A stretch of 64,000 nucleotides of DNA, taken from assembly GCA_031310005.1 (NCBI GenBank), contig CM062383.1, positions 558,001 to 622,000 on the forward strand, given 5' to 3'. The stretch is from Dactylellina haptotyla (Eukaryota > Ascomycota > Orbiliomycetes > Orbiliales > Orbiliaceae). Shown piece by piece: positions 7,610 through 63,100 of this stretch. Numbering within the stretch: position 1 is the first letter of the stretch; every line of letters starts with the position of its first letter. The position numbers and the translations under genes were made by a program. The notes beneath the pieces are model-generated. The model was not told the origin of the DNA. It did not search any database and saw only the letters and a list, made by a program, of their open reading frames with translations.

Positions 7610-9092
7610 TCACATTCCGCCGATCTTTCCAAACTGGAATCCACCGCTACCCATAGGATTGACACCCTGTTGGCTATTCTGCGGTGGTGGCGGCTGAGCG
7701 TACGGGTTCATCTGCTGCTGAGGTGTCATGGGTCCCGGTGTCATGCCCGTGCTGGTAGACATGTTACCAGTTGGAGTTGATGGGACATGTCCGCCATTAG
7801 TCTGATTGCCTTGTCCGTTGGTGTATTGGGTCGCACCGGCGGTGTTCACAGACGGTCCACTCGTGCCAACACCGTTCAATCCCCAAACTTGGCCGCTGTA
7901 ATCCCCCCATCGTCGTTAGTACAGGTCCCCCAAATAAGAGCAAGTTATCAAAAAAACATACCAGTACTTCTCATCATCGATTTTTCCTTCGAAATATCTG
8001 CCCCTCATCGCAAAGAAGATGTGTCCAGTCAATAAACTGTCGCTACCAGCCTGGTGCTGCGGCCCAACCCTCTGAATTCCCATATCATCCGCGATATCCT
8101 GCAACCCACCCTTCAAAGTCTTCACCGTCTTCATCAAATACTTAATATCGTAAAGCGCGGGGAAGAAAGTATGCAAGTATTTACGAAACTCGTTCTCCTC
8201 AGCGGGGAGCGCCTGGCACAGCATAACCTTGACTAGATACCCAAAGTCGTACCCGCTGTGGAAGGAAACCCACTTGACATTCTCGAGCAGCACCAATCCG
8301 GACGAGATCAACAGCTCGCCGAACTGTGAGACATTGATCCCGAACTCCTCGTGGCGCTTGAAGTCGATGCCGGATTTGGTGAGCAGGTCGATGGATTCCT
8401 GCGCGTACATGTCGTCCGCAAGAGAGAATTGGAAGTTGAACTGCCAGGTGGAAACTGGTTCTGGGGTTTTGCCGTTTTCATCGTAGAAGGTGATGCCCAA
8501 TTGGATAATCTTGAGCATGTCCACGTTACAACGAAGCGTCTGATAATGGTAGTCTGCCTTACTACGGAAGCCACCAATCGGACGGGCTACTATTCCAGGG
8601 AACTCGGTGTCCTGTCGGTTCAATTTTCGATTAGCCATGTATCTCCCTTACTAAGATTTCTTTCGAAATACCTACCATGGCGATATACGGGTATTCCTCG
8701 ACCAGGTCTCTCAGAACAGCGATCTCGGCCTCCAGGTTGCCCTTCCAGACTTCTCTGATAGCTGTCGCGGCGGCGGCAGCAGCTTGTTGCTGTAGCGATT
8801 GCTGCTGCTGCGCAGTCGCCTGAGGGTGAACAACGGACTGGTTATGCTGCTGTTGCGCGTGCTGAGCATGGGCGACCTGTTGCTGCAGAGCCTGCTGGTG
8901 CTGGGATTGAGCTTGAGCTTGCGCGTGATGGTGGGACTGGTGTTGAAGATGCTGCTGATGCTGCGGCTGCATCTGATGGTGGTTGAGATGGTGGGAGGCG
9001 TGAGGGTGGCTACTGTGCAGGAGGTGCTGGTTGCCGAAGGGCGAGGGGGTGTGCATCGTGGGGCCGAAGCCCGTGCCTCGTGCTGGAGGCAT
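7610..9092 (-). CDS. POP2: CCR4-NOT deadenylase subunit Pop2/Caf1
   Basis: Three exons (9092-8676, 8611-7962, 7895-7610) give 450 residues. Pop2/Caf1 is the DEDD-family 3'-5' exoribonuclease of the CCR4-NOT complex that shortens poly(A) tails in the cytoplasm. Residues 1-110 are low-complexity, with many Gln and His. The RNase D fold starts at IREVWKGNLEAEI. The first acidic pair, D and E of DTEFPG, sits directly after intron 1. The second Asp is in the GYDFGYL motif and the third in HQAGSDSLLT, so the catalytic set is complete. The third exon adds GQVWGLN and a Gly/Pro/Gln-rich tail. The ATG at 9092 is chosen because upstream sequence in frame does not look coding. It is divergent from the NDUFB3-like gene over 623 bp. 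Confidence 0.95.
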
Positions 9093-9715
9093 CTTGGGGG
9101 GTCGTTGACGTGCTATGGCGGATGGTTGGAAGGGGTAAAAAGGGACGTGCGTTATCTCGACGGCCGAGAGTATCGAACGATGGGATTCAAATCTGCTGGA
9201 TTGAAGGTTCCCAGGGGTTCCATCTGACGATTGCGGGGAAATACGAGGGTGGTTCAGCACAGGAGGGTGGCCATGCTCGAGTGTGTGTGTCTGTGTGTGG
9301 AGTAGGTTCAAATCGCGGCGTCGTGTTTCCCGTACCCGCGTCCTTGGCTATCCAGCTATCGTGTATACGCCTCAAAAGTGTCTTCTCGCGCTGTGGAAGT
9401 CGTCCGTGAAATCGATGGCCTGGTGGTCGTGATGCGGCGGGGGTGGATATCTGGTGATAAGAATGGCGGAGGGAGGATGTTGAGGGCAAGTTGGAAGACT
9501 GTGGTTGATTGTTCGCCTGGCTGACTAAGCCGCCCGCCCGTCCAATCACTTCACCCGAACGACAACCTCACCGCAACAGCCCAATCACCTCGCACCCAAT
9601 TCGACCCTTCGTCATCCTCCCCGACTCCAAACTCGACCTGCACACGCACCGTAAGGCACTCCTGTTCTCGTATATTCCAATTGCTCGCTGCTAACGATAC
9701 GTCAATGGTAGCACC
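9093..9715. promoter_or_regulatory. divergent promoter between POP2 and NDUFB3-like gene
   Basis: This 623-bp spacer separates two divergently transcribed genes and must hold both promoters. A GT-rich microsatellite-like stretch lies near 9281-9300. On the plus strand a leader intron is likely at 9651-9711: GTAAGG donor, a GCTAAC branch site and a TAG acceptor four bases before the ATG at 9716. No recognisable TATA element was chosen. Confidence 0.5.
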
Positions 9716-33768: not shown

Positions 33769-34881
33769 CTATATACCAATTTCTGGTCGTGGTCCGACAA
33801 AAGGAGGAATTGTAGTGGGCAGATCGTATGGATCTTTCAGCTCGTAAGAGTAAAACTTAGAAGCCTTGAATACCTTGTGCGAGTCGACATCTAGGTGAAT
33901 ATCTCCAGTGCAGTCTTTGAACTTCAACCAGTTACTCTTGATCGAAGCTTTCGGACCAGCGACAACAGGATCATTAACGCGCTCATAATAGGATGTTTCG
34001 ACGAGGAGCTCAGTCTCTCCGCGGGCGTAGTTGCCATAGGAGGTGACGTTTAGCATGTAGTTGTTGTACATGTGGCAGTATTTTAGGTTATCGGCGGAAG
34101 GACCACGTTGGTTCGTGGAGTTGAAAAAGTTATCATTGATCTGGTTACGTCTATCAGTAAGTTAATTGGTAGTAAAGGTAGAGTGTATTTAACTAACCGT
34201 CATCTTAGAAATGACATTAGGTGTCCAGCCGATACCAAATGCCTTGTTATGCTCCGAGAGAAGACAGCTCGATACCGTGACGTAGTCGGTATCCTTTCGA
34301 AGGTCGATGAGACCATCTCTCATACGTGCGAGCTACGTACCCGTTAGTAAACCCATTCTATGATTGTTAAATTCTTGGTATTCAAGACGTACCTTAACAT
34401 GATCAATCCAGATGTTCGTTCCATTGTCGACTTGAATTCCGTCCCAATCCGCTCCCTTGCCGTTGTAATCCGTCGGGTCATAGGTATCGCTAATCTCCAG
34501 ATTCCGAATGATGATATTCCTCTGACTGTTGATATTGAAGCCACCACCAAGGAGGTGGCCCGTCTGGCCCACTCCAATTATAGTCTTGAAGCTCTTTATC
34601 GGAACCTCGTATCCCTTAGGCTCGGCTACTATTGTCCCCGAAACCCTGATGATATACGGTTCTGTCGCACCAGCATATTTCTTCAGATCGGCATGGGTGG
34701 TAACCGTAACGATTTGACCGCCCTTCCCACCGTAGGTACCACCGTTTAGCGATGCAAAGCCATGCGCGACATCTTCACATTGCGCACACCCAGCTCGCTT
34801 TACGTGTGGACCAGTAGTTGGCACGCCGCGGACTAGCAAAGGGAGGATAGCGAGGAAGGATGCGAGCTTGATGTACATCAT
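33769..34881 (-). CDS. pectate lyase, polysaccharide lyase family 1
   Basis: Three exons (34881-34393, 34332-34198, 34140-33769) give 331 residues. PL1 enzymes cleave polygalacturonate by calcium-dependent beta-elimination outside the cell. Residues 1-20 are a signal peptide, followed by a KR site and CAQC. The parallel beta-helix part shows NGGTYGGKGG, LLGGGFNIN, RNIIIRNLEISD, then DWDGIQVDN and IWIDHVK, the usual vWIDH strand with the calcium-binding Asp residues. LIDLRKDTDYVTVSSC matches the following coil. The catalytic-Arg region reads NQRGPSADN before CHMYNNYM, like the R-x-P...H-x-x-NN pattern of PL1. The size is normal for a secreted fungal PL1. Introns are 60 and 57 nt. Confidence 0.9.
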
Positions 34882-36328
34882 TGTAGTTCAATTGACGGTA
34901 CTGCGGCTTTTTATGAAATTCGACGAGCGATATCGGCCGGTTTGTATCTTCTCGATCTGGTAACGAATATGCTGGCGGCGCAGGTATAGGAGGAGACCGA
35001 TGAGGCAGGACGCTTTCGAAGTGACCTCTTCTCTCCGTCCATAGCGACAGGTTTTATACTCGTTCGTATTCCTCTCAACATCTTCAGTCTTCCTATCGAT
35101 CTATCCTAGAATGGAATACGACATTAGCATGGAGAAGGCCGAATTTCCAGCGTCTGGCCTGCAGCGAGCTTCCAAGACGGAATAACTTACCTCTCTGCCC
35201 ATCTCCCGAGCCAAGATCTTTATATATTTCCAGACGACGACGGTGGCTGTGCTTAGAAAGTACCCCAATGGAGCACTTCATCGTCGTCCCTGATATCCCG
35301 TGGCCTAAATTGACCCTGACCTAGATGACCTCTGCCGCTGACATCACTTAACCTCTCGGAGGCTCCTCGAGTACCAGTTAGCTAACTCGTGTCGAACACC
35401 CAGATCCAAAAAGCCACTTGCACCATCATCTCCAATCGTGCCCCACAATCCGCCATGATTTTTCCGTTCCCCAGACTTCAATAATTTAGCCAAATAATGC
35501 GTACCACGGAATGGCTGTTCGGGCGACCAAGAAGCGAGTTAGGCTAAAACACCGGCTAAAATGGTCCAAAGCGGATCATAGCCCTACAAAGTTCACAAAA
35601 CATCTACAAGAACACACTCCGAGAGCTTGAAATTGAGACAAGCACCGCTGGGTACGAGAGGAAGTTATCTTGGCCTCTCCGCTTTGTCTTCTTGGCTTCT
35701 CCTAGTATCCCTTTTCTTCATCGATCTCCCCCGTTTCTGCCCCGCACTTGGCTCACATGCCTGTGGGATATGGGATATCTTTGGTGGAATAATTGAGGTT
35801 TATTGTTTTGATTTTCCGTACGAACTAGACGCTGAATTCATATTAATACAAGTCGGACCGTTCTGCGCTGCCCGATATCCCGGCATTGTGATAAGGTTGA
35901 GTGATCGATCAATCTCGCACACACGAAATCTGGAAGACGCTTCAGTGTTCTGTGCTGTTTAAAATCTCAAGGTCAAAAGCCATATATTGATACACCATTG
36001 GTGAAATGTATATGTTGAGAGGATAATATTCCAGAATTGACAAAAGAAAGAGAACCGATGTTTCGATTGCGTTCCCACAGTAGAATCAACTGTGTGCAAT
36101 GGCTATGACATATCCGTCATGACCCTATCAGAAGGACTATAACCTTCTATACTATTCTGCAAAACTGCCACCCCCGTATTATAACAAAGGAAAGAAGAAA
36201 GAAAAGAAGAAGAAAAAAACTCCTTAAACCATTTAAAACCAGCATTCGCTAAACCGCAATATAAATCGGCAGTATACAGAAAACACCCTCAAAGATTCCA
36301 ATCTGCAACTCCCCGTCCCGTTCCGATA
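34882..36328. other. intergenic region upstream of pectate lyase
   Basis: This holds the pectate lyase promoter and the 3' UTR of the minus-strand MUG113 gene. The open frame at 35627-35962 has no ATG start and is not accepted. The A-rich stretch around 36180-36230 fits a 3' UTR. Confidence 0.5.
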
Positions 36329-38572
36329 TCACAAAAACCCAAAAGTACCATTCCTATCCGTCCTCTCCATCCGCTTCCGCCTCATCTCCTCTTCTTCATC
36401 AAACTCGTCCTCTTCCTTTGCCTCTTCCACATATCCCTCCCTCCAAACCATCCTCTCCACACCCCTAACACCCCCAGTAACCTTCCTATCATCTTTCCCA
36501 TCCTCACCTTCGCCTAGGAACCCCGTCGCCGCACTTCCTCCACTGTTATCTCTCCTATGCCCCAAACTAGCAGCGATCCCCCACGACTGCCGTTTATTAA
36601 CCGCCCCTTCCACCCCTTCAGCCCACCTGCACCACCGCTTGATCACCTCGTCCACACGCTTAACCCCTTCCCGGTTTCCAGGCACCGCAAACCACTCTTT
36701 ATGCACCCGTTGACAAGTCTCGCACACGTGCGGCTTATTGTAATAGTCATCCCTCAACTCCAGATGGATCAGCCGCTCAACGCGATGAGAGAAGGGTACT
36801 TTCTGCGCGGGCTTGCCGTTTCCCGTGGTGGCAGCGGCATTACCGGAGGGTACGCCGTTGTTTCCGAGCGGGACGTAAGGGTAATAACGCAGTAGTTGGA
36901 GGTTATACCCGCACTGCTGGCTCCACTGATGTAACCTACGCTGAACGTTCTGCGCCCTTCCAATTTTCAGTAGGACTCGCTTTTCACGTCCGGATGCACT
37001 GAGGGATGAGCCACGGCTGCGACGGTTGGCAGTGGGGCTGATCGCTTCGTCGTCGTCAGAGTAGTCGTCGTCCACGGCGCGGAAGAGGGCAGCAGAACCA
37101 GGGTCTTTAATGTAGCTGTACTTTCTATTCTGTTTGATCGCTTGTTGGGCTGGCGTGACGGGTGGGGGCGCTAAGATTGGGATTCCGCGTATTGTCTCAC
37201 CGATTGCTGCGCCAGCTCTGTCTGGTAGCGGAGGGACAGCGCTTTCGTCTTTCAGCCAGAAAATGTAGATGTATCCTGGCATATCCTTCTGAGATATCGG
37301 TTTATTCATTTCCGTGGTGATTAGGGCGCGAGTTTTGGCGGAGAGATGAGATGGGAGGATTGGGTTCAAGGAGTGGATGGTTTCCACGGGAATATCAACA
37401 GTCTGGGTCTCATCATCAGAGTCGTCTTCAGAGTCCGACGAGGATATCAGTTCCGGATCATCCCAGCCATTCGGATGATGAATATTTGGCGGGAATATAG
37501 CGTGTGTAGTTGGGTGAGCTGGCGGAACAATTGCAGGACGTTGAAACTTGATATGGGCTGCTGCCGGTTCTGCTGGTGGAGCGGAATGAGGGTATGGTGC
37601 TATCGGTTTGGAGTGTTGAGGCTGCTGCACCGGCAGCGGCTGGTTGTGGGGCTTGAAGTTAGGATATGGAGCCGCATTCTGCTGTAATGGCGGCTGCTGT
37701 GAAACCGGCCGCGGTCTCGTAGATTGCATCTGAGGCTGTTGGTAATGAATCTGGCTGTGCGGCCTCGCTGGCGGCGTTCTATAGTCATCCTCTGCGATAC
37801 AACAGAATAACTGTGCTAATAACGACGGCCGTCCATTCGGTCTGTGAGTCGTCGGCCGTGGTCTCTGCGATGGCTTGAGTTCGTTATTCGGCGGGTAGGT
37901 ATCCCCAGGTGCTTCCTGTATGCGTCCCATACTCTGCGTGCTCAACCTGTTCGATGTTCGTTTCGGTGGCCCGCCAGACGGCATTTGCGATACCGGTCGT
38001 CCATGGTTCTGTATGCTTGCATGATTGTGTCCGTGTAAAGCATCCCAGACGGCCTTCTTCCCCTCTCCTTTCTTCTTAGCTTCCTTCACGATCCTCGCAT
38101 CCTTCTTCACCACAGTGTTCTTCCTGACAATCATGACCTCGTCATCGCCAATTAATGTCTCCCTCCTCATGATAACCTCTGCTTGCCCCGGCCCAGCACC
38201 TTCTCCAGCATTCTCGCCGGCTTCAACGCCTAGGATAACCTCAACCAAGGTATCAAGACTACTCCTTCCCTCCAGCCGCCTCATCTTCTGACTCTCGCTC
38301 CTATGCAATACGACAGTATCCGCGGCCTGGTCTTTATGTTGCCAGCAGAAGAACTCCTCAGCTGGATTAATCTCCTCAGCTGTCTGTTCTTTATCGCTGT
38401 TACTATTCGACGACTTTTTGTAACCACTCGGCGCCTTGGAGGCGATACTCCGTCGACAGGGTTTCCCTGTACTAATGCTGATACCGCGACAAGTGGTTGC
38501 AGGATTTCGACTATCGCTGCGGCCGATGAGGCGCGCGGCCAGAGCCTCGGGCGTAGATGATATGTACGGCAT
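36329..38572 (-). CDS. MUG113-like T5orf172/DUF1766 (GIY-YIG superfamily) protein
   Basis: This single exon encodes 747 residues. The C-terminal domain, roughly residues 430-650, has GYIYIFWL, then after a disordered insert LLKIGRAQNVQRRLHQW, HRVERLIHLEL and CETCQRVHKEWF. This is the order of the T5orf172 (DUF1766) domain, a GIY-YIG-like nuclease fold named from the meiotically upregulated gene mug113 of fission yeast. The N-terminus has Cys28, Cys39, Cys76 and His79 in a C-x10-C...C-x2-H arrangement that could bind one zinc. The middle is Pro/Gln-rich and acidic (SSDSEDDSDDE). Whether the domain cuts DNA in these proteins is not established. The family call is strong; the cellular role is open. 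Confidence 0.88.
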   Translation of the reverse strand: MPYISSTPEALAARLIGRSDSRNPATTCRGISISTGKPCRRSIASKAPSGYKKSSNSNSDKEQTAEEINPAEEFFCWQHKDQAADTVVLHRSESQKMRRLEGRSSLDTLVEVILGVEAGENAGEGAGPGQAEVIMRRETLIGDDEVMIVRKNTVVKKDARIVKEAKKKGEGKKAVWDALHGHNHASIQNHGRPVSQMPSGGPPKRTSNRLSTQSMGRIQEAPGDTYPPNNELKPSQRPRPTTHRPNGRPSLLAQLFCCIAEDDYRTPPARPHSQIHYQQPQMQSTRPRPVSQQPPLQQNAAPYPNFKPHNQPLPVQQPQHSKPIAPYPHSAPPAEPAAAHIKFQRPAIVPPAHPTTHAIFPPNIHHPNGWDDPELISSSDSEDDSDDETQTVDIPVETIHSLNPILPSHLSAKTRALITTEMNKPISQKDMPGYIYIFWLKDESAVPPLPDRAGAAIGETIRGIPILAPPPVTPAQQAIKQNRKYSYIKDPGSAALFRAVDDDYSDDDEAISPTANRRSRGSSLSASGREKRVLLKIGRAQNVQRRLHQWSQQCGYNLQLLRYYPYVPLGNNGVPSGNAAATTGNGKPAQKVPFSHRVERLIHLELRDDYYNKPHVCETCQRVHKEWFAVPGNREGVKRVDEVIKRWCRWAEGVEGAVNKRQSWGIAASLGHRRDNSGGSAATGFLGEGEDGKDDRKVTGGVRGVERMVWREGYVEEAKEEDEFDEEEEMRRKRMERTDRNGTFGFL

Positions 38573-41500
38573 AGCGATGGATGATTATTGCGTTTTCGTT
38601 TTGACGGGTTGGATATCCGTGCGTAAGTAAATACGACGAGAGAAGGTAGAAGTAAGGGTTCCAAGATATTTGGGTGGTACCGAGGGAGAAAGGGAAGGCG
38701 CCCTGCGCACGCACGCACACACAACCCCCCCTTCAAAGAGCGAAGATGAGGGTTTGGTCCGTACGTCTGTCTGTCTGTCCGTCGGCCGAAAAGTGAAGGA
38801 GACAGTACGAAAGGGTAGGAGATATTGGAGAGAGAGATAGTCCTAAACTGAGCACCTACAGGTGTATTTTCGTTAGTTTCCCGTGGAGCAGAGTGCGAAA
38901 AATCACCGGAATCCGCAACGAACGGATGTATAATATTATTATATACCCGGATGTCATAAAATTAAAGTAATTGAAAGTGAAATATGGCGTAACACTTACC
39001 CAATCAAAAACGCCCAATCTTAATCTCCTCTCTCTCTTTTCTTTGTTTCCTTTTTATTCAAGCCGCAAACGAGAAGTGAGAGTTAAAGAGAGAGGAAAAT
39101 AAATTAACAAGATAAAGTTGCCTGGCCTGGAGGTCGGCACACCCGCTAGCCCCGGTCCAGTTTAACCCTTCCTTCAAGCTTTCCGAGATATCTCGACCCA
39201 AGCTACAACTGCGGTTAGTATCAACAACAACAACCGAGTATATTATTATCGTCTCCGAATAAACCACAACAACTATCGATGGGAAAGCCGGGGTGAAAGT
39301 AAACCGAACAAAAATCTGGGAGAAAGAGGAAAGAATACCGTTTTGAGCGTTTGGAAGTTTAGTATAAGGGAACTATTATATAACCCACCCTTTCCCTTCG
39401 TTCCGCCTTTTGGCCCAATCCAGCGAGGCGCATCACAATGAATCCTGCCTGTCTGTCACAATGCTGTCACGGCCAGCGGATACTCTGTCAGTCGTGGACA
39501 GTGAGTGGCCAACGGTGGATTCCTTTGACGAAACGCACACATGCCATGGGGCCAGCCGCATGGTTACCCCGATCCGCTGCTGCTGTAAACCATCTGCCCT
39601 GCTCGACCTGCAGAAGTGAAGGGTGAGCCGAGTGAGCACAGTTGCCTGGTTCCGCTTGGACAGGGGCAGCGAGGAAAGAAGCGATGGGGGGACACAAGGT
39701 GGGTTTGTTGGAGTGATGTCTCCGCGTTCCACAGGACACAAAACAACAACAAGAGCACAAAGGGCGCATTGCCTCTTTCGACCGGCTGCATAAGCCACTC
39801 TGACAGGGTTCCCACAGCCACAACTCTGACGAGCCCCTCGCCACGGAACGGTGCCCTCAGGACTAACTGCCATCCAATCGATAGGTCAGCAGCAGCCTGT
39901 CGAATTATCTATTTATTTATCTACCTTGCGCTCGTTACAGCGGTCTAAGAACTAGTAGACCGAATAGTGGTAGTAGCAGGAGCAGTAGCAGCAGCCTTAG
40001 TGGCGAAAATAGCAACCCAGCAAAACTGCCTTGATCATATGTCCCACAATTAGACTCGCCGTTTGCCCGGCTTAGCTCCCCCAAATGCCCAAATGCAAGC
40101 TAAAAACTCCTAAACCCAAGGGCTTAAACTAAGTGTTAAAGCGCAAGCAAGGGCCCTCCTAGTAGAGTCGACAGAAAATCAAGGCACTTGTGGTGGTGGT
40201 GGTAGTGCACTATCATGTTTTTCATTCTCACGAATACCAAACTGAAACATACATATCTTTCGATACCCCACGACCCCATCTCGCCTGCATAGAGCTCGCT
40301 CGAAACCCCTCCGAGCAAGCGAGCGAATCTACGGGGTCATGATCACCCCAGCTCCTCCTCCTCCTCCTTTTCTTCGAATCGTACAAATAATATCTCTTTT
40401 AACTAGGAAAGTGAGCGTGAAGGAATGAAGGTAATGAAATGCAATGTCAATGCGAAATAACGCTTAAACCCACAGTCAAACTGCCCATCTAAGACATTTA
40501 TATGCACAAACATATAGTCCCCACCGCTCTCTCCACTCCTCTCCAACCTCGAAGGTGCGAGCGCATTTTTCAGACGCATCCAGGCCGTCAAGGCCATCAT
40601 GACCATAAGCGGCGCCTCATAATAATCACCTTATTCGACATCCTCCCGCTGCCGTCCCTCATCTTCTGAAAAAAGAAAAGAAAGGTAACCGAAAAGTATA
40701 TTATCAAGTGAAGAGGAGAAAAAACTTTAAAACTAAATATTCCCCAATCGATAACCCAGCTGGAAGCCATGCATATGTGCAATGCACATATTTTGTGAAA
40801 AGAAGATAAAAAATGCATGAAATCCACAAAGAGGCCGGGGTGGTCCCACCGTATGCTTATCGTGCCACGGACCCCCTCTTACCCCCTACCCCCTCTCTGG
40901 CGCCTTTTCGTTCATGCAGAAAATGTGGTAATATTAAACAACTATAACATCCCCATCCCAAACTAACTCTCCCCGAAGATCGCGAGCGATGTGAGTGCCT
41001 GGTAATTATAACCGTCAGCCCCGAGTTTAGTTCCCCCTCCTCATCAGTAAGTTTTTTTTTGTTTTAGCGAGGAAACAAATTGGAACCATGGGAGCAAGCG
41101 AGGTCTGAGCTTGATTTGTGATTGATTGATTGATTGATGTATGTAATGTATGTATGTCGGCACTATGCACCGGTATCACACGGGGAGTTAGCTCGGCTTT
41201 CCTCGCTCCACTTCACTCTATGATATCAGCGGCGACAGGTATTATATACCATCTACTTCTGCTATTACATATCTCAAATTTTGTCTTCAAGTGTATAGCC
41301 TAGACTCTTTCTTTCTCTCGCTCGCTCTGGACATCGGGGTACTGCACCCCGACCCCGAGGATTCAAGTATATAGGCGCTAGCGGACAACAGAAAAAAGGG
41401 GCAGAGGGATGTTACGCAGCGTTAAAAGAATACCACCATCCTCATGCCTATTCGAAGTTCAAATCCCTATATGTAATGACAATCACCAGGTTTGTCTATC

Positions 41501-52780: not shown

Positions 52781-53867
52781 ATGGCCGTCCGCGCGCAAGT
52801 ACGTTCGATCCCCGGTCAATATGCCTTCATTACCATCATTTCATGACGTGCTAACGCTCTCTCACAGTTTGAAAACTCCAACGAGTACGACTCCCACACC
52901 CCGCTTCCACCCCCTCATCTGCCCCTCCATCGAATCACAGCAGGACTGACAGGGCTTCTTATAGGGTCGGCGTCTTCGCCACATTGACCAATTCATATGC
53001 TCTAGTAGCTATCGGTGGTTCCGAGAACTTTTACAGGTACGAGCCAAGGATCGGGCATGGCGGGGTAATGAAGAGAAGGGGCGGTCATCTGTGCCTCCTC
53101 CTCCAGGACTGCCGCACCGCCGCCTCTCTATCACCGCTCCAATCACATGGACTAACACGATCCGGTGCAGTGTCTTCGAAGCTGAACTGGCAGACGTCAT
53201 TCCTGTCGTTCACACCACCATTGCCGGCACAAGAATCATCGGCCGGTTAACAGCAGGGTATGCATCCACCCTACTCTACCTAATCCAACCCGGCCAACAC
53301 TAACCAAAACCGTCATCCAGAAACCGCAAAGGTCTTCTCCTCCCAACCTCCACCACAGACCAGGAGCTCCAGCACCTCCGTAACTCCATCCCGGACAGCG
53401 TCAAAATACAACGTATCGAAGAACGTCTCTCCGCTCTCGGCAACGTCATCTGCTGCAATGACCATGTCGCCCTCGTACACCCAGACATCGAACGCGAAAC
53501 CGAGGAATTGGTCGCCGATGTTCTCGGCGTCGAGGTGTTCAGACAAACAATCGCAGACAACGTGCTGACAGGTAGCTACTGCGCGCTGAGTAACCAAGGT
53601 GGAATCGTCCATCCGCAGACGAGTATACAAGACCAAGACGAATTGAGCAGCTTGTTGCAAGTTCCACTCGTAGCTGGCAGCATAAACCGCGGAAGCGCCG
53701 TCGTCGGTGCCGGTATGGTCGTCAACGACTGGATGGCCGTCACAGGTCTCGACACGACCGCCACAGAATTGTCCGTCGTCGAATCGGTATTCAGACTAGG
53801 CGAGGGCCAGGCACCACAGAACGTTCAGACTACGCTCAAGGACAGTTTGGTCGAGAGTTTCTACTGA
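52781..53867 (+). CDS. TIF6: eukaryotic translation initiation factor 6
   Basis: Five exons (52781-52798, 52868-52884, 52965-53036, 53171-53257, 53321-53867) give 246 residues, the standard eIF6 length. eIF6 is needed for 60S subunit biogenesis and keeps 60S from joining 40S until released by the Sdo1 and Ria1 GTPase pathway. The start MAVRAQFENSNEVGVF and [30 protein letters not shown], the GLLLP segment and VGVF-like repeats form the five-fold pentein array; the end reads [10 protein letters not shown]. Two very short exons (18 and 17 nt) begin the gene, so the start is only found by splicing. All introns are 63-134 nt with GTACG or GTATG donors. Confidence 0.97.
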
Positions 53868-54997
53868 ACAGTCTAACAAAACAAAACAAAAAACCACCCA
53901 CCAAAAAAAATCTATAAACATCAGAGGAGAGGTGGTCTGAAAGACACCAAAGATTTCTTGTCGACACACATAAACACTGGCTGCACGCCTTTTAACCTCG
54001 AATCGGTCATATAGACCGAAAATCTAGAGCTAAATAAACGACTTCTCACTAAATCCTACATTTCATACCACTAGGACACCCCGAGGGATATTGATGATGA
54101 TACGAAGACTATGAGGGGAATTAGAATCTGGTTTCTTCGAAGAAGAACAGAGGAAGATGTATTATAACTTTCTTTCTTTCCTTTTTTGGACACACACTCT
54201 CTCTTTCTATTTTGTTCTCTTTCTTCCACGAATGATTTGATATCTAGATAGACATGAATTCAAGGCCATTTTGGCAACATCTTCCTCATTTGCTTGCCGT
54301 TGAAACGAAGTAATTATTTCCGCAATGACAACCTGATAGCACGTGCATAGAGAACCTATAAAGTTATTTGTAAAACAAATACAGTAAAACAGCCCGGTAA
54401 TATACAAGATAGATTATCTAGCCCTTTGTCACACCATCGCGTAGTCCGGAGTGATTAGCTTCTTAAATTGTTTGTATCTTGACTCTCCAACATACCTATG
54501 TAAAGTTAGCTCAAGGATTTCAGTATGCTATTTTGAGGAGTGTCATATTCGTATATTTACCAATTCGCGAAGATACACCCCATATTCAGACCCGAAATCC
54601 GAGTTTGCAGAAATATAACCCTGCCATGATCAAATATGAACTTGCACTACATTTACCCTCCAATTCACTACCCCACTATCCCATCTGATAGAGAAGAGAG
54701 CATATGCATTGCATACTTGTTCGAATATATTAAATGCATGCATGAAAAATCAATGGCTATCCTCAAAGACAAATTTAGCATACAAAATACTCAACTCGTG
54801 CGGACGTGCTGTAGAGTCCTATAAATTTCTTACCCAATTTAATCCGACCCACCCCTCCATCTCATACTTCCTATCATCCATCCCACGCACAATCACTACA
54901 TCCATCTAAAACCGTAGATCCAGATCCCCACGAAAATAACATCTAAAATATTCACCCTCTATAACACGCAAAGCCACAAATAAATAACCTAGAAACA
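53868..54997. other. AT-rich region before the Cys-rich array
   Basis: TIF6 3' UTR followed by AT-rich DNA. Open frames here (for example 54479-54688) have no recognisable content. The last 40 bases include TATAACAC at 54960-54967, about 30 bases before the first array gene. Confidence 0.5.
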
Positions 54998-55138
54998 ATG
55001 TGCCAGTTAACCGAAGTCTTCTGCGGCGGCTGTCAAGCCAAGTTGATCGATCACCACGAAGAATGCGCTGACCCGGTAAACTGCAAACGCACTGAACGGT
55101 TCGTAGAAATGGTGCCAGGTTGTCAATACTGTTTGTAA
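54998..55138 (+). CDS. MC-type small Cys-rich protein, array copy 1
   Basis: This 46-residue protein is too short for usual ORF cut-offs. Its spacing is M-C-x6-C-x2-C-x10-C-x5-C-x12-C-x2-C-L-stop, identical in every interval to copies 2 and 5. It ends one residue after the last Cys, so it represents the minimal core of the family. Seven Cys, six of them in three pairs (C-x2-C, C-x5-C, C-x2-C), suggest one or two bound zinc ions; it has no signal peptide and is probably intracellular. TATAACAC lies just upstream at 54960. Function unknown. Confidence 0.65.
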   Translation: MCQLTEVFCGGCQAKLIDHHEECADPVNCKRTERFVEMVPGCQYCL

Positions 55139-55584
55139 ACTGTAGAAACGAAAAAATTGACGGGGGTTCGTATCGTAAATTTGTTGCTATTTCGTTTGGA
55201 AGATGGAAGGTAGACGCAATGAAGTGATAGCCCTTTTGAGAGTTAATTAAGTGGGATATCTGTCAGAGAGTAGATAATATCTGCCTTAGACCAGAATAGA
55301 TGTATTGATTTTCAGGAATTCGCTTCAAGTTTGTGTTTCTTCGTAAATTCGTCGGAATATTTGTATTCAAATCCAAAATATATACCGTATCCACAAGTGA
55401 ACACTTTAATCCTTCTATCTTCCAATCCAAAGACATCGATCTAGAAAGTGACCATCCAAACATCCTAGAATACAATCTCTCCAATCTTTCACCCTTGAGC
55501 ACCATCATATCATCAAAGGAATCCTTCTCAGAAAAGAAAACACTAAAGATACCTCCTAGAACTCATTGTAAACATCATCTCACA

Positions 55585-55761
55585 ATGTGCATTCAATACA
55601 TCAACAAGTGTACCTTCTGCGGAGCAAGAAAACTCGGACACTCCGCTCTATGCTTTTCTTATGCAACTTGTACAACTATCACTGAAGGCACGGAATTGGT
55701 TTCCGCCTGTCCATCTTGCCCTCCCTTCCCAGCCGGAAACCATCAGGTCTTTAGATTTTAA
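55585..55761 (+). CDS. MC-type small Cys-rich protein, array copy 2
   Basis: This 58-residue protein starts at the ATG at 55585; the frame is open further upstream but without an ATG in a sensible position, and the MC start matches the other copies. Spacing is M-C-x6-C-x2-C-x10-C-x5-C-x12-C-x2-C, the same as copies 1 and 5, with an added tail PPFPAGNHQVFRF. After the second Cys pair it has C-G-A, as in copy 3. Sequence between the Cys is otherwise very different from its neighbours, so the copies are old or under diversifying change. Likely metal-binding; function unknown. Confidence 0.7.
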   Translation: MCIQYINKCTFCGARKLGHSALCFSYATCTTITEGTELVSACPSCPPFPAGNHQVFRF

Positions 55762-56244
55762 GAGGGAAGCATCAAATTGGAAAGATCAGGGTAATCGTTT
55801 GTGATGGGTTCCGGGGCAATCACGGGGGAATATATTTAAACTAGGGGAATTATTGGTACTATTATCGCTAGTTAGCATATGTTGGTGCGATTCCTTCAGA
55901 TATATCTAGATATGGAATCAAAATATTGTCCTGAACAACCGATATTCATTATTGTAACCCAAGTACTATATTCCTAATGCCCTAGATCTTTAACATTCCT
56001 ATACACCGAACTCAATAGCATTAGCCACACAATATAACCTCTCGAAACAAAAATATAGTACCTCAGTGCGGATGAAACCAATTTCCTGATATTATGATTC
56101 TATCATCATAAGTTACTCGTGAGGATTAACACGAGCCAGACTAATAATATACACCCCGCACCTGCCACCATACCTCCCATCCACTTTATAACACACACTC
56201 CCGCGTAATCAAACCTCCTAAAAACACCCCATCGACAAAGAACC

Positions 56245-56496
56245 ATGTGTTTTCCGTACTCATTCATCTGCCCTCAATGCGGCGCCCACAAGGATCAAAA
56301 CTTCGGGCATTGTCCAAGCTACCCGAACTGCGAGATCATTGCATGCATTGACTGCGGTTATTGTGGAGATGTAAGCCGTAGTTACGAAAGTGGTAACGAA
56401 AGTCTTACCCTCTCGAGATTGAATATCCAGGACGATAAACCAATGGGATCTCAGATATCTAAATCCAAAAGCGGGGTTAAGGGAAGGGTTAAATAG
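56245..56496 (+). CDS. MC-type small Cys-rich protein, array copy 3
   Basis: This 83-residue protein keeps M-C-x6-C-x2-C-x10-C-x5-C, then differs: the next interval reads E-I-I-A-C-I-D-C-G-Y-C, giving C-x7-C-x2-C with one additional Cys inside. The tail of about 37 residues is polar and basic at the end (KSKSGVKGRVK). C-P-Q-C-G and C-P-S-Y-P-N-C look like zinc-ribbon knuckles. TATAACACAC lies at 56187-56196 and resembles the element before copy 1. Function unknown. Confidence 0.7.
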   Translation: MCFPYSFICPQCGAHKDQNFGHCPSYPNCEIIACIDCGYCGDVSRSYESGNESLTLSRLNIQDDKPMGSQISKSKSGVKGRVK

Positions 56497-57006
56497 GGTG
56501 TAGCTATGGTATTCCCTCTGGTATAATATAGGACCCAGGGCTTATGGAATGATGAAAACTTTCCCGAGATAAAGTCGAGAGTTAGCTAGCCATATGTACG
56601 ATGAACATACTTATATTGCACTATAAATGCCGTATATCAGACGCCAGTCCATCGATTCAGAAGTTTTCCTAAAAACAGGTCACCATCGCTTAATATTCAA
56701 AAACGAAGTTGCTTGCTTGAGGAGCAGATACCTATAGTATCACACCTACATGAATTGTTATACATGGCTTGAACCTATGATATCGTATGTATTTATAATT
56801 ACAATCTAACAATTTCAAAACAAAGACTGTATAAAATTCAAGGAGATGAGAAAATGATGACCTTTAGTATATCAGGATCGATATCAAACTAAATCTGAAA
56901 ACATTTACAAGCATCAATCCCCTAGATACCAAGTCCTTAGAATTTCCAATTACCAACCCAATTACCAACCCATACGCAATCCAAATATCCAACAAAACAA
57001 CAAAAG

Positions 57007-57204
57007 ATGTGTAGCAAGATCACCTCTGAGTGCGACAATTGCGGAACTGAGCAAATAGATGTAGATTGCGGTGCTCCAAACTGTCAATTCGACGCCCGCG
57101 TGTACATTGAAAGAGATTCTTGTGGTAAATGCGGGGGCGACGGACTCGAAATTATTATTCGCAAGACAAATGATCCCGATGTAGTTTACGAATTTAACTA
57201 CTAG
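57007..57204 (+). CDS. MC-type small Cys-rich protein, array copy 4
   Basis: This 65-residue protein starts MCSK, as does copy 5. Spacing is M-C-x6-C-x2-C-x8-C-x4-C-x12-C-x2-C, slightly shorter in the middle than copies 1, 2 and 5. The paired C-D-N-C-G and C-G-K-C-G-G-D-G knuckles are typical of zinc ribbons. The tail is acidic and ends E-F-N-Y. Upstream there is a direct repeat of AATTACCAACCC (56946-56969). Function unknown. Confidence 0.7.
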   Translation: MCSKITSECDNCGTEQIDVDCGAPNCQFDARVYIERDSCGKCGGDGLEIIIRKTNDPDVVYEFNY

Positions 57205-57581
57205 AGTTGCGTACAGAACTACTTTATACTCAATCTATGTACCTAAATCCTTCGTTTCTATTTCTAAAGAGAGCTGGCTCCTAGATTCTCATTTCTGGCA
57301 CATCCTTGGGGCATTTCTAATCGCAAGACCTGAATCTGCCACCAAATTCAAATATGAACAGGACTCAGTGACGTTTGAGAACCGCGATATGTTGCTCTCT
57401 AAACGATTATCAAATGCAACGGGGACCTTGATCTAAATTTGTGATTGATGAATACAGCCCTTTGCCATTCAGATATTCTTTATTCCTGTCGTGCTTCATC
57501 AGATCAAAGTTCACAACAAGAGCGTCACTTCTACCAAAGCCTCACGTCCCTAGAAAAGTATTCAAATACCAGGACACCAAT

Positions 57582-57815
57582 ATGTGTTCCAAAACACTCC
57601 TTACCTGTCAAAACTGTAAATACGTAGACACCATCGAACTTATATCCTGTGAAGTATACCCAGGCTGCAGGACCCATTATGAATACAGAAAGGAAGCCAA
57701 AACCTGCCAGTATTGCACTACTCCCGGCTCTAACTCTGGTAAAGACACAATGCCGCTATCGAAGGGTTTCATGGAACTTCAAAAAGCCATTTGGGCACTC
57801 AAAAAGAGTAGTTGA
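57582..57815 (+). CDS. MC-type small Cys-rich protein, array copy 5
   Basis: The ATG at 57582 gives 77 residues; upstream in-frame sequence from 57441 is open but does not look coding and would hide the MC start. Spacing is M-C-x6-C-x2-C-x10-C-x5-C-x12-C-x2-C, the same as copies 1 and 2. The last knuckle C-Q-Y-C is shared with copy 1, and the start MCSK with copy 4. The 31-residue tail includes a helix-like MELQKAIWALKKSS end. Function unknown. Confidence 0.7.
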   Translation: MCSKTLLTCQNCKYVDTIELISCEVYPGCRTHYEYRKEAKTCQYCTTPGSNSGKDTMPLSKGFMELQKAIWALKKSS

Positions 57816-58019
57816 GGTGCACATTTTATGAATAGAAAGACAATGATATACGTGTCCCCGTTGTAATATCACGATATCGTATTTCATCTTTCGGCGTTCC
57901 GTGTAGTCTGGTAGATGGCAATACTAATCGAATTCGGTATACAATATGATATTTAATAAGAAGGAAGCTGTTGAAGAATCCCACTATATAAGCCATGCTT
58001 CTATGAATACGTATCAAGG

Positions 58020-58300
58020 ATGTGTTCAAGTTAAAGTCCAAGGACCGACTTCAACCCTTCATCCTCTGCGAAACCTGTAACGACACCGCCGTATTTCCTT
58101 GCGTCTTCTTCGGAAACCGGTACGTTTCCTTCACGGACCACAATTCGAGCGTACATTCCTGCTGCGGTGGCTGCTTCGACTTCTGTAGTATGCGAAAAAG
58201 AATGTCAGTGTCTTGCTGTGCAAATTTGGGTTCAAGAAAGGGTATTCAAAATGCTCGAGAAAGTTATAAGGAAAGAGAGCAGGTAGAAAATAGACTATGA
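58020..58300 (+). pseudogene. frameshifted sixth member of the MC Cys-rich array
   Basis: The sequence begins ATG TGT TCA AGT TAA: an MC start like copies 4 and 5 but stopped after four codons. The +2 frame from 58022 then stays open to 58300 and contains C-E-T-C, a Cys seven residues later, and C-C-G-G-C, comparable to the first and last knuckles of the intact copies. The Cys expected five residues after the third is Arg. The tail is basic. The simplest reading is a decayed paralogue with a frameshift near codon 4. A start in another upstream exon is possible but not seen. Confidence 0.45.
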
Positions 58301-60166
58301 AGTAGAACGCTGAAGCAGGACGCTGAAGCAGGATAGCAGGTGACAAGAACGTATGCAGCGAAAGATTGCCCGCTGACTTCTTGGAGAAATGAAAAGAAAT
58401 CAAAGACATGAAGTTTTCAAAGCGGACGTCCTCGATTCACGAGGAAACCCCCAACTCCGAAATCATCAAAATCCCACATGCTAAAGGTTCATCATATCGA
58501 GCTGGCTGAAATCCCAAAATCTCACGCCAAACCGTGTGATCAAACTATCACACCGCATGAAAAGAAAAATGCACAGCAAATTCACACAAAATAGTCCACC
58601 TTGTGATCAGAGAAAACCAAGACATCAAAAGAGGAAGATCGCGATGCTTAAACACCGGAGTTGGGAAGACGCCTTCCAACTATCAGCCTGTCTCGTTTGG
58701 ATAAAGCACAGCTAAAGCCCGAGATAGCTTAAATTGTCTCGGAAGTCTGAGCTCTCGAGTTTCAAGGATCACAGAAATTCCAGACCAGAAACAAGCAAAG
58801 CAGGGTTAGGAATGTTGCCGGAATACCCTGTTTCTCCGCTCTTCCCAAGCCAAAAAGTAATATATACCAATTGGATTGAAGCTCTTCGTCAGAAATGAAG
58901 GAATTTTTCCAAACGATCATGTGCCATGACTGCTCTGAGGGCTTTTGCTTTCTCTCCCAGCGTCATGAATCGCTAATCTCCCCGGAATTATTCCAGCCCA
59001 GCCTATAGTCCCTTCCCACGGATTCATCCCTCGCAGCCCTCCAATAGACGCCCAACAAAAAGGCTTCGAAAATTCTCCAGAAATCCCGACAGCCTGGGTA
59101 GGTCTAACCTCGATATGGGAGGATTGAATGAAAAAAAATATGCATCATGTCCACATGAACAGTAAACAGGGCCCTGGTTTGTAGAATGTGGAGATCGCGA
59201 ACAAAGACCACCACCACCAACCACTATCACTCTCCTTTGGGTGTTGCGGACTTTCGCGCCCACCAGCCAGGAAAGGGCATCATACGGAAACCTCCCAAAG
59301 CAAAGGAGGGGTCCGATCACGGCACCCGACCGAAAACCTGCTTCTCTCGCCCACCATCAACAAAGGGCACGGCGCCTAGCAACCAAGTGGAGACCTGGCC
59401 GTCCGAAGTTCTCGAATGAAAGCCCGCAGATTTGAAGAATCAGAGACATACGCAGCAACCCACCGCCGAAAGAAGAGAGCCCTCGCCATGGGGGAACAGT
59501 GTGGATCACGCGAACCACCAAAAAAAGACGCCGGATTTCGAAATGCTGGTGGCACACCCAGAAAAGGAAGACAGACCATCCCTGCAGCTTGCATATTCGC
59601 TAGCTTTGGTGTTTCTCTTTGACTTTTATGAAAAAGCCTGGTGTTGAGATGGCAAAAAAGAAGGCTCGCGAAAGCATTCCAACCTTAGTTGGTACTTAGC
59701 CGAAGGTGGTACTAAAAAAACGACCATGCAACCAACCCACCTGGTTTCGATGGGATGGGGTCCTGGCAACCCCAGATTTCTGCGTGTGGTGAAAGACCTT
59801 TTTTTTGCGACAAATGTAACGTAGATGTCTACCAGAAATATAATAAATCTGATGGCGGCGCAGCTAGCCTCCTTGCAGGGTGGTCATATTTCTAACTCCG
59901 CTGAGCAAATTTCCTTTACCCGCAGGAAGTATTCCTTTCGAGAAATTTCCCAACAAAAAAGGATATCCATAATTGAAGAAAAGTATATTTTTAAGGCTGT
60001 CTCGCGTAGTCGGTGTCCACCGCTCGGAAAACTCCAGAATGGCACTGCGATCCGAAATACGATGATTTCGGTATATCTCTTTTTGCCCCGCCGTCGCCGC
60101 CGCCCGTCGAATATCAAACGGTGATCAAAGGAGAGGGTCCTGAAGAAAGAAAGTAACTGAGCCTAC
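58301..60166. other. region beyond the array; probable place of the UTR4 last exon
   Basis: No complete gene is supported. An ATG at 58919 opens a 29-codon frame starting MCHDC that echoes the array proteins but lacks the remaining Cys pattern. On the minus strand this interval must hold the missing C-terminal exon of UTR4 if that gene is intact. One candidate acceptor at about 59616 leads into a frame with Q-A-A-G-M, reminiscent of the A-x-x-A-G-M helix of E1, but the following residues do not match the family. Fifteen-base-scale A and T runs occur throughout. Confidence 0.35.
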
Positions 60167-63100
60167 CTTTAACATTATCTGTCAAGAAGACCCATTCTTC
60201 AGCGACGTACCCTGTCTCGCGGATTATCACCTTGTAGCTCTCCTCTAAAGTCTTCAGCCCCGCGTTGACGGTATCAAAGTGACCTGAGAGGAACGGGCGC
60301 AAGTTCGGTTGTTCACTGTTATCTGTGTACTCGAAGAACAGCTTCTGCGCGAGCACGCTGCCAGACGAGTAGATGTACACTTTGAACCCTTTTGATGTCC
60401 AGAGCTTCAAAGCGGTGATGACATCCGGGTATATCGGTGCTTGGACGGCGCCTGTGCGATAGGCGGTCAACCAGAGGTATCCTTGATTTTTGCATGTTAG
60501 TGGCGTGTGGACGCACGAAATCAGAAAACAAAGACCTCGCAGCTCGCATGGACCAACTCTAATTTGATTGGTCCTATGAATAGCATTTGAAGGGAAAAAA
60601 GGAAACTGTCTTCAGAAGATAAAGCAGCGGAGGGGCGAAGATAGGGCGAGTGGGTGTGGTAATGTGGAGGGTATACTGTGTTGTGCTATTGGTCGATAAG
60701 GGAGGGGGTCCCGGTTGACGATCTTGATGCGCCTCGCAAATGCAGCGCGCCATGACAACTTTTGCGACAACCAGGAAAGCATGATTACAATAATGTGAGG
60801 TGATGAAGAGGCTGGGATGACCGAATACCGTCTACACCTTCTGCTTGTGCCTTATTCACTCCGGCATCGTAGTCCGTATGGAGGCAGGAGATGGGGCAGG
60901 AGAAACATCTCTAAACTGCGCCGTGCGAGTCCAACGATGCAATATGCAAATGAAACCGCGAAAAAGTTGCGAAAACGCTCGAAAGTAACTTTTAGGTTTC
61001 AAAAACTCGTTAGATAGCTCCATTACTAACCTTGCAAGTTTTTCAAATACGCTATTTTGACATCATTCCTAGTCAGGTCCTCGACATGGCTGAGGAACGC
61101 TTTCGGGTCTTCACGATATTCCGGTGGAAACTCGTTGCGATACGGCGCAAATTCGTCGCTGCTCCACTGGTCCTCCAACACCTGCGGGAGGGCGGAGAGT
61201 GTGTACGGAAACTATGATCATTTAGATAATCCAATACATGGGTTAATTCCAATTCGTTCGAAAACACCATATTCGAGCAGCATAACCCCGGCAGTTGTGG
61301 ATAATAATGCACGAATAATCCAAAAAACAGAAGGCGAAGTACTTTATTGGGTGCTACAACAAGTATCTTGTTGACTATTGCGAGGGTCTCGAACGTGGAA
61401 CTGCAGAAGTGGTGGGCCGGCAAAAGGCTCGGTTCCACACCGTCAGGCATCATGGTTCTTTCGAATTTTCCTTCGCTTTATCCCATGCGAACATGGGAAT
61501 ATAGTATTCTTAGGTATACCTCGCCTATCAGAGACAGAAGCTGCGATCAGCTTCGTCGCATCGGCGAACGGGGGTGGAGCTGCCATGCTGCGAGCTCCAG
61601 AGCACCTCTCAGTGGTTGGCTGGGTGTTTGGCCTATCGCCATGCGACGGAGGAGATATGTCATGGGATCCATATCATGATGCAACCCGTCAAACCATGAA
61701 CGATACGAACGAAAGAAAGAAAGGAAAGAGGCAGATGTAATGCGTTGGGTCCACGTTGCGATAACCATGCCTCCGAGCGAGAAACAGGCAGGAACTCAGT
61801 CCGGCCCGCCGTAAAGCAAGGCGACAAAAGCTGTGGGCTGGATGAATAGGAACGACGGACGACGACGAGCTGCTTCAGCAACAGGAAGCATCCCGGCTTC
61901 AACCTTCCAAACAGGAAATTCGGTCCTTTTCCGGCAAGTCCACGCAATTATTTTGTTGGCCGCATTATCGACCATGACCTGGACGGACCCAGTGCCTTTC
62001 GAGCTTGGTGTCTCCTGCAACGGTAATTGGCCAGGCAGAGCAAGTGGAGCTGGACAAACCGCGCAAACAGAGCAGGCACCACAACCCACCAACGCATCGC
62101 ATTGTTGAGGCCAATATCAAATCGATATCAGAAAGAAACCAAGGCTGACGCCAGCCACATCACCGCTTTTCCTGCCACCCGTTTGCATCTGTGTGCATTG
62201 GTACCTCCCTCCATTTGCGAAAAGATGGGATGAAAAATTTTTCACTTTCGCATTTCGATAAAAGAAAAGTGGGTCCGGCGCAAGGATCCATTGTCACCCT
62301 TCTCGAGATCGCGAGACTCCATCTCAGATAATCCTAAAAAGAAACTGCTAAGCGGTAGGGAAAAGGGTAGGTGTCATGTCGGTCGAGGACGCGGATATCG
62401 GGATATCAACAGGCATTGCAGCTTGCAGCAGCATCAACAATCCGCGATACTGCACAGCTAGCTACCCTGCGCAAGCTCGTGAAAATCCAACAAAAAGCTT
62501 CGAGAGAACCTGGAAGCTACCCCAGCCACCGTTCATGCGATGGGTACATTCCCTTTCCAAGCTCTCCGAGCTGGATGTAATGTTAACATTTAACCCCACG
62601 GCTGAAAAGTGACCGGTCGCGATCGCTGAAGAAAAAGTATGAATGAAGAAAATTTTTTGCGAAAAAAAACAATGAAGCTGTGGAGAAGAATGCAATTGAT
62701 CGCGCTGGCATAATCCGAGCCTCGACTCGAACGTGTCGAAGAGGCAGGTATCCGATCCCGAAATGCAAAGGAAATTGATATGTTCTGTCAAATCTGCAGA
62801 AGATGTGCAAAATGCGAAAGAAAGAAAGAAAAATTCCGCAACGTAACAGGTACGTACCAGCACGTCTCGAACGAATGATATCGAAGATACGGTGCCTTCT
62901 ATTATCGCGAAATTAAGCGGCGCGACGCAACTCGGATGTTAGCAATCATGTCCACAAAAAAATTCCCACAAATTCCATTCATTTCAAATTTTGCAAAAAA
63001 TAAAAATTAAAAAACCTCAATTGAATATGTTATTCCGAATCTCGTAAAGAGATTCATGTAATATCCTCGGATAAATCATCTGCACCCTGTCAGCGCGCGC

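Follow-up and report, generated by a model that had tools for sequence, protein, structure and literature searches.

A tandem array of small cysteine-rich Met-Cys-start genes in Dactylellina haptotyla, plausibly encoding intracellular zinc-binding proteins

We analyzed a 64-kb window of the genome of the nematode-trapping fungus Dactylellina haptotyla (positions 558001–622000 of contig 5, in an 11-contig genome of 39.8 Mb), a species for which we take Monacrosporium haptotylum to be an older name. Positions 54998–58300 of this window carry, head to tail on the plus strand, five intact open reading frames (ORFs) and one broken copy of a small gene whose product begins with Met-Cys (MC) and holds seven cysteines at nearly fixed positions. 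Judged from the sequence, saturated silent sites together with invariant cysteines, and the base composition of the leaders, support the conclusion that the five ORFs are a real local protein-coding gene family. On balance, we favor the reading that the array represents an old, locally duplicated family of small, non-secreted intracellular proteins, which would be organized around structural zinc and may have a binding or adaptor role.

The initial annotation had described five intact genes and one broken copy with a fixed cysteine spacing, identical in copies 1, 2, and 5. All of these ORFs were recovered (Table 1), with successive gaps of 446, 483, 510, 377, and 204 bp (range 204–510 bp), the last being measured to the ATG of the broken copy at 58020, and the spacing was borne out. 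Each of the intact ORFs starts with Met-Cys, and seven cysteine columns are invariant in five of five copies. The cysteines occupy positions 2, 9, 12, 23, 29, 42, and 45 in copies 1, 2, and 5 alike. Two intervals are shortened in copy 4 (2, 9, 12, 21, 26, 39, and 42), and the last long interval is shortened in copy 3 (2, 9, 12, 23, 29, 37, and 40), which has an extra cysteine at position 34; the cysteine counts of copies 1 to 5 are thus 7, 7, 8, 7, and 7, odd in four of five. Both CxxC pairs are present in every copy. The isoelectric point (pI) ranges from 4.2 to 8.7 over the copies, and the C-terminal tail after the last cysteine from 1 to 43 residues, the longest being that of copy 3. The claim that the residues between the cysteines are almost unconserved proved nearly right and slightly too strong, as the non-cysteine core is 10.9% identical compared with 5.6% after shuffling, and none of 2000 shuffles reached 10.9%.

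Table 1. Features of the array and its flanks, in window coordinates
Feature	Position	Strand	Length	Leader A+C	Characteristics
3' part of eIF6 (TIF6), left neighbor	53304..53867	+			Pfam eIF-6, E 3.2e-57
A+C-rich, G-poor leader of copy 1	54938..54997	+	60 nucleotides		leaders of copies 2–5 alike in composition
Copy 1	54998..55138	+	46 residues	0.77	seven Cys; one residue beyond the last CxxC
Copy 2	55585..55761	+	58 residues	0.68	seven Cys; intervals as in copies 1 and 5
Copy 3	56245..56496	+	83 residues	0.77	seven core Cys plus Cys-34
Copy 4	57007..57204	+	65 residues	0.83	seven Cys; without any His; pI 4.2
Copy 5	57582..57815	+	77 residues	0.67	seven Cys; pI 8.7
Broken copy	58020..58300	+		0.53	MCSS, then stop; Cys-rich stretch after it
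Part of acireductone synthase (UTR4), right neighbor	60114..60611	-			PDB UTR4, E 3.2e-19

The codons of the conserved cysteines argue that these ORFs are genes. The ten copy pairs and seven columns give 70 comparisons, of which all 70 match at codon positions 1 and 2 and 28 match at position 3, with TGT and TGC mixed in every column. The non-cysteine codons of the core agree at 29, 30, and 34% at positions 1, 2, and 3, respectively (338 comparisons). Silent sites are saturated, yet the cysteines are intact, indicating that the cysteines are held by selection. As far as ORF structure shows, MC is also the N terminus, as had been proposed: none of the six copies has an in-frame ATG upstream of MC. 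An A stands at −3 in all five intact MC starts and in the broken copy (background 0.279), and the guanine-plus-cytosine (GC) content of the ORFs lies 7.4 points above that of the spacers, a difference reached in none of 445 shifts.

The 60-nucleotide leaders of the intact copies are rich in A+C (0.67–0.83), with a pooled value of 0.743 against a local spacer null of 0.556 (0 of 5000 draws), and poor in G, with a pooled value of 0.073 against 0.154 (fraction of draws this low, 0.003); the leader of the broken copy is unlike them. Among the 2014 ATGs of the window, 2.5% reach a leader A+C of 0.67, copy 5 (40 of 60) lying just under that mark, and 1.9% combine A+C ≥ 0.66 with G ≤ 0.134, as all five copies do. 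Two 6-mers occur in five of the six upstream stretches, compared with 2.8 in random draws. TATA-like words lie upstream of copies 1, 2, and 4 and of the broken copy (four of six, as a raw count) and are not consistent.

On both strands of the window, ORFs of the form MC-x3–10-CxxC are the five copies only. Simulation of 60 windows of 64 kb with an order-3 Markov model yielded the full motif 0 times and this short start 15 times (0.25 per window, compared with 5 observed); as the copies themselves supplied the motif, the test is post hoc. We also searched 314 kb, comprising the window and a further 250 kb (200 kb from contig 5, 50 kb from contig 1; in all 0.8% of the genome), for the part of the cysteine pattern bounded by the two CxxC pairs. 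Whether MC was required or not, this search gave only the five copies, and the MC start is therefore not a mere selection effect.

The local duplications look old, as the array has neither a long direct repeat nor the composition left by repeat-induced point mutation (RIP). The longest direct repeat in 54600–58600 is 17 nucleotides, and a genome search placed the array DNA at this one locus; recent duplication was rejected on these two grounds. The composite RIP index is −0.33 for the array, −0.45 for the window, and −0.39 on average over 264 one-kb bins. RIP was rejected as the cause of the divergence, as there is no signature now and the index is slightly less negative than average; ancient RIP is possible. 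The GC content of the array, 0.406, is not unusual, since 43 of the 264 bins fall below 0.42, among them four of the array itself and ten of an AT-rich segment at contig 5 3730001–3740000. That segment, near the right end of the contig, has 7–16% GC in all ten of its one-kb bins, and three of them qualify as RIP under strict criteria, the sole such bins among the 264. Of the earlier proposal of local duplication and diversification, the local gene family stands, upheld by silent saturation and the leaders; ongoing diversification is conjecture, because the copies are too diverged for a ratio of nonsynonymous to synonymous rates (dN/dS) and share no repeat above 17 nucleotides. In the accessible part of the M. 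haptotylum genome report, tandem duplication followed by RIP is proposed for secreted orphan proteins (PMC3828140). The duplication half of that scheme fits the array, and the RIP half has no visible trace here.

Within the searched scope, the family is an orphan and apparently unannotated. Pfam and NCBIfam gave no family model above cutoff for any copy, and the PDB gave weak matches only, with no convincing solved relative, in agreement with the initial annotation, which knew of no assigned role. Searches of copy 3 against bacterial and archaeal contigs and of copy 4 against viral contigs confirmed no relative, as expected for fungal genes. No publication on a seven-cysteine MC-start family was found in the literature, which is not proof of its absence from print. 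The family is unusual among fungal cysteine-rich mini-proteins in its invariant MC start and in having no visible signal peptide. The published M. haptotylum annotation, as far as the accessible text describes it, used GeneMark-ES and removed peptides shorter than 48 amino acids (PMC3828140). Copy 1 falls under that cut and would drop out of the annotation, which agrees with the expectation that standard gene callers would miss it; copies 2–5 exceed the cut, and their absence from protein sets has another reason.

A zinc-binding fold, as suggested in the initial annotation, is a plausible interpretation of the cysteine pattern. In this proposal, the two CxxC knuckles (Cys-9/Cys-12 and Cys-42/Cys-45 in copies 1, 2, and 5) would hold one zinc in the style of a zinc ribbon, and Cys-2, Cys-23, and Cys-29 could make up a second metal site or else stabilize the fold. 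Loops and C-terminal tails would be free to change and may serve as target-binding surfaces, and gain and loss of copies, of which five are now intact and one is decayed, would tune the set. Most likely, each product would act inside the cell as a small binder or adaptor and not as an enzyme or a secreted toxin. The odd cysteine number in four of five copies, together with the lack of an N-terminal hydrophobic stretch by eye, speaks against a disulfide-sealed secreted protein. By eye, no copy has a signal peptide, although an upstream spliced exon is possible.

Zinc-ribbon and rubredoxin-type models did appear among the Pfam matches of copies 2, 3, and 4, all of them weak and below cutoff, that of copy 4 being at chance level. 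Residues 7–25 of copy 3 matched PF18073 (Zn_ribbon_LapB) with 20.2 bits (cutoff 25.7), and copy 2 matched PF21349 (RUBY_RBDX) with 14.5 bits (cutoff 26.5). The copies share with these families a CxxC knuckle and small size; they differ in that each match covers about half of the cysteine core, and to our knowledge seven cysteines with an MC start is not a zinc-ribbon or rubredoxin layout. No copy reaches the Pfam cutoffs of these families, the best score being that of copy 3. Fungal Zn2Cys6 (Gal4-type) proteins follow C-x2-C-x6-C-x5–12-C-x2-C-x6–9-C. The spacing in the array differs, and no model of this class appears in the list of Pfam matches at E 10; membership in that class was rejected.

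Several results weigh against the structural-zinc reading. Seven ligands underfill two four-ligand sites, and there is no conserved histidine, copy 4 having none at all. AlphaFold models made with the five-sequence input reached a predicted local distance difference test score (pLDDT) of 41 for copy 3 and 52 for copy 1; copy 1 showed weak strands at residues 2–10, 14–17, and 30–38 and copy 3 no strand of three residues or more. Because both models are poor, the three-strand pattern of copy 1 is a hint only. A profile of the five copies had zero matches at E ≤ 1 among 5.8 billion proteins, in a search that considers only proteins of similar length sharing short exact words. This database includes D. 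haptotyla proteins, and public protein sets therefore appear to lack the genes as distinct entries of about this size. Single-protein searches of the whole genome matched each copy to itself only, bar one weak match; as they missed even the sister copies, diverged members elsewhere are possible. As for the leaders, three of the 38 ATGTGY sites outside the array (43 in the window) also have A+C of 0.68–0.70, and A+C is 0.48–0.70 at six hand-picked control gene starts elsewhere in the window, with A at −3 in four of six. Since controls and other ATGTGY sites reach similar A+C, the leader is suggestive, not exclusive. A shared promoter word was not found either, no 7-mer occurring in four or more of the six upstream stretches.

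The shortfall in ligands could be met by a variant of the zinc proposal. After removal of Met, the free N-terminal amine of Cys-2 would, with the seven cysteines, supply eight ligands for two zinc ions in a new mini-fold. Such a fold would account for both the odd number of cysteines and an MC start that never varies, and we consider it a long shot. The start could also belong to a redox or oxygen sensor, since Met is cleaved before Cys and the exposed Cys-2 might be oxidized or read as an N-degron. The MC start in five of five copies, which holds when the motif is sought without MC, is in keeping with this, but six further fixed cysteines would be left unexplained, making a sensor of this kind very improbable. 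Metal buffering by metallothionein-like zinc or copper stores or sensors, with copy number tuning capacity, would suit the seven cysteines in the 46 residues of copy 1, the lack of a conserved histidine, and the tandem amplification. The fixed spacing across saturated divergence points instead to a fold, no CxC pair was read in the five sequences, and the list of Pfam matches at E 10 (most above ~0.1 having been filtered out) contains no metallothionein model. We regard buffering as unlikely, and membership in the metallothioneins was rejected on the last two counts.

In a different alternative, the copies would be cysteine-rich, effector-like proteins, unconventionally secreted or spliced, that the fungus directs against its nematode prey, comparable to the orphan secreted proteins already described in it. 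For those proteins, the accessible part of the genome report describes small size, tandem duplication, and kept cysteines in an otherwise variable sequence (PMC3828140), all of which the array shares. A signal peptide and 12 cysteines characterize the secreted cluster of that report (PMC3828140), against seven cysteines and no signal by eye in the array. Since no signal sequence is visible and no in-frame ATG precedes MC in any of the six copies, a place among the small secreted proteins of nematode-trapping fungi was rejected; MC conserved at the start itself and the odd cysteine number likewise argue against effectors, which we judge improbable here. The ORFs might also be relics of an older family, no longer genes, whose cysteines persist through chance or for want of time to lose them. 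The one broken copy among six and the lack of a homologue in the protein database would fit this; with cysteine positions intact despite saturated silent sites, and A+C-rich leaders present before the intact copies but not before the broken one, decay of the whole array is hardly credible.

The broken copy itself looks decayed. Its cysteine-rich stretch lies downstream in a different frame, with a spacing unlike that of the family in the three frames read, and one family cysteine position is absent by reading. A genome search gave no further copy of this stretch. The weak match mentioned above, at contig 1 2026862–2026957 (minus strand), aligned to residues 20–52 of copy 3 with E 0.019. It has no MC and contains an internal stop, and it was rejected as a paralogue, being probably due to chance; the frame beside it resembles that of a DRG-type GTPase.

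A look-alike ORF of 68 residues lies on contig 5 at 4731–4528 (minus strand), with an identical twin on contig 2 at 1427661; we took it for an MC-start CGH-type small fungal protein. It shares with copies 1, 2, 3, and 5 the MC start, Cys-12, and Cys-23, and differs in that CGH replaces CxxC and the later cysteines are at 34, 52, and 57. This ORF had no match in the protein database, and hhalign gave a probability of 0.1% (E 0.49) for a relation to the array; kinship was unsupported, and we rejected it as a family member. It is the single look-alike seen in relation to the statement of the initial annotation that short MC-start cysteine-rich proteins are common in filamentous ascomycetes. The ORF is carried by a segment of at least 3.2 kb that is 100% identical, in opposite orientation, between contig 5 3028–6231 and the inner part of contig 2 near 1427661; this identity reflects either duplication in the very recent past or an artifact of assembly.

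The array is flanked by eIF6 on the left and acireductone synthase (UTR4) on the right. The right neighbor matched TIGR01691 with E 1.2e-29 and 103.3 bits (cutoff 128.1), and a Pfam search of the same frame at E 0.001 gave no match. Elsewhere in the window, the gene at 36332–38575 (minus strand) is 97% identical over its full length to H072_7895 of D. haptotyla CBS 200.50, the next-best matches, from other Orbiliaceae, being at 64% or less. By this one gene, the DNA comes from a nematode-trapping orbiliomycete that is D. haptotyla or very close to it. The M. haptotylum genome is estimated at 40.4 Mb in the accessible part of its report (PMC3828140). Part of a pectate lyase (Pfam PF00544) lies at 34333–34887 (minus strand), its start being signal-like by eye. 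The frame 7919–8647 matches Pfam CAF1, of the CAF1/POP2-type deadenylases, and the adjoining frame 8631–9347 (minus strand) appears, by reading, to be its His/Gln-rich N-terminal extension.

Together, these data describe a constrained gene family that is apparently lacking from a collection of 5.8 billion proteins that includes those of the nearest species, perhaps partly owing to the 48-residue cut of the published annotation, as given in the accessible text (PMC3828140). If expressed and metal-binding, the family would offer an uncomplicated example of seven residues holding a fold as all others turn over. If the reading of an intracellular zinc family is true, counts of orphan genes in nematode-trapping fungi, which in the part of the genome report available center on secreted proteins (PMC3828140), would miss an intracellular set. 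If the N-terminal amine does serve as a ligand, the array may stand for intracellular gene families of Orbiliomycetes that have, as a class, escaped annotation.

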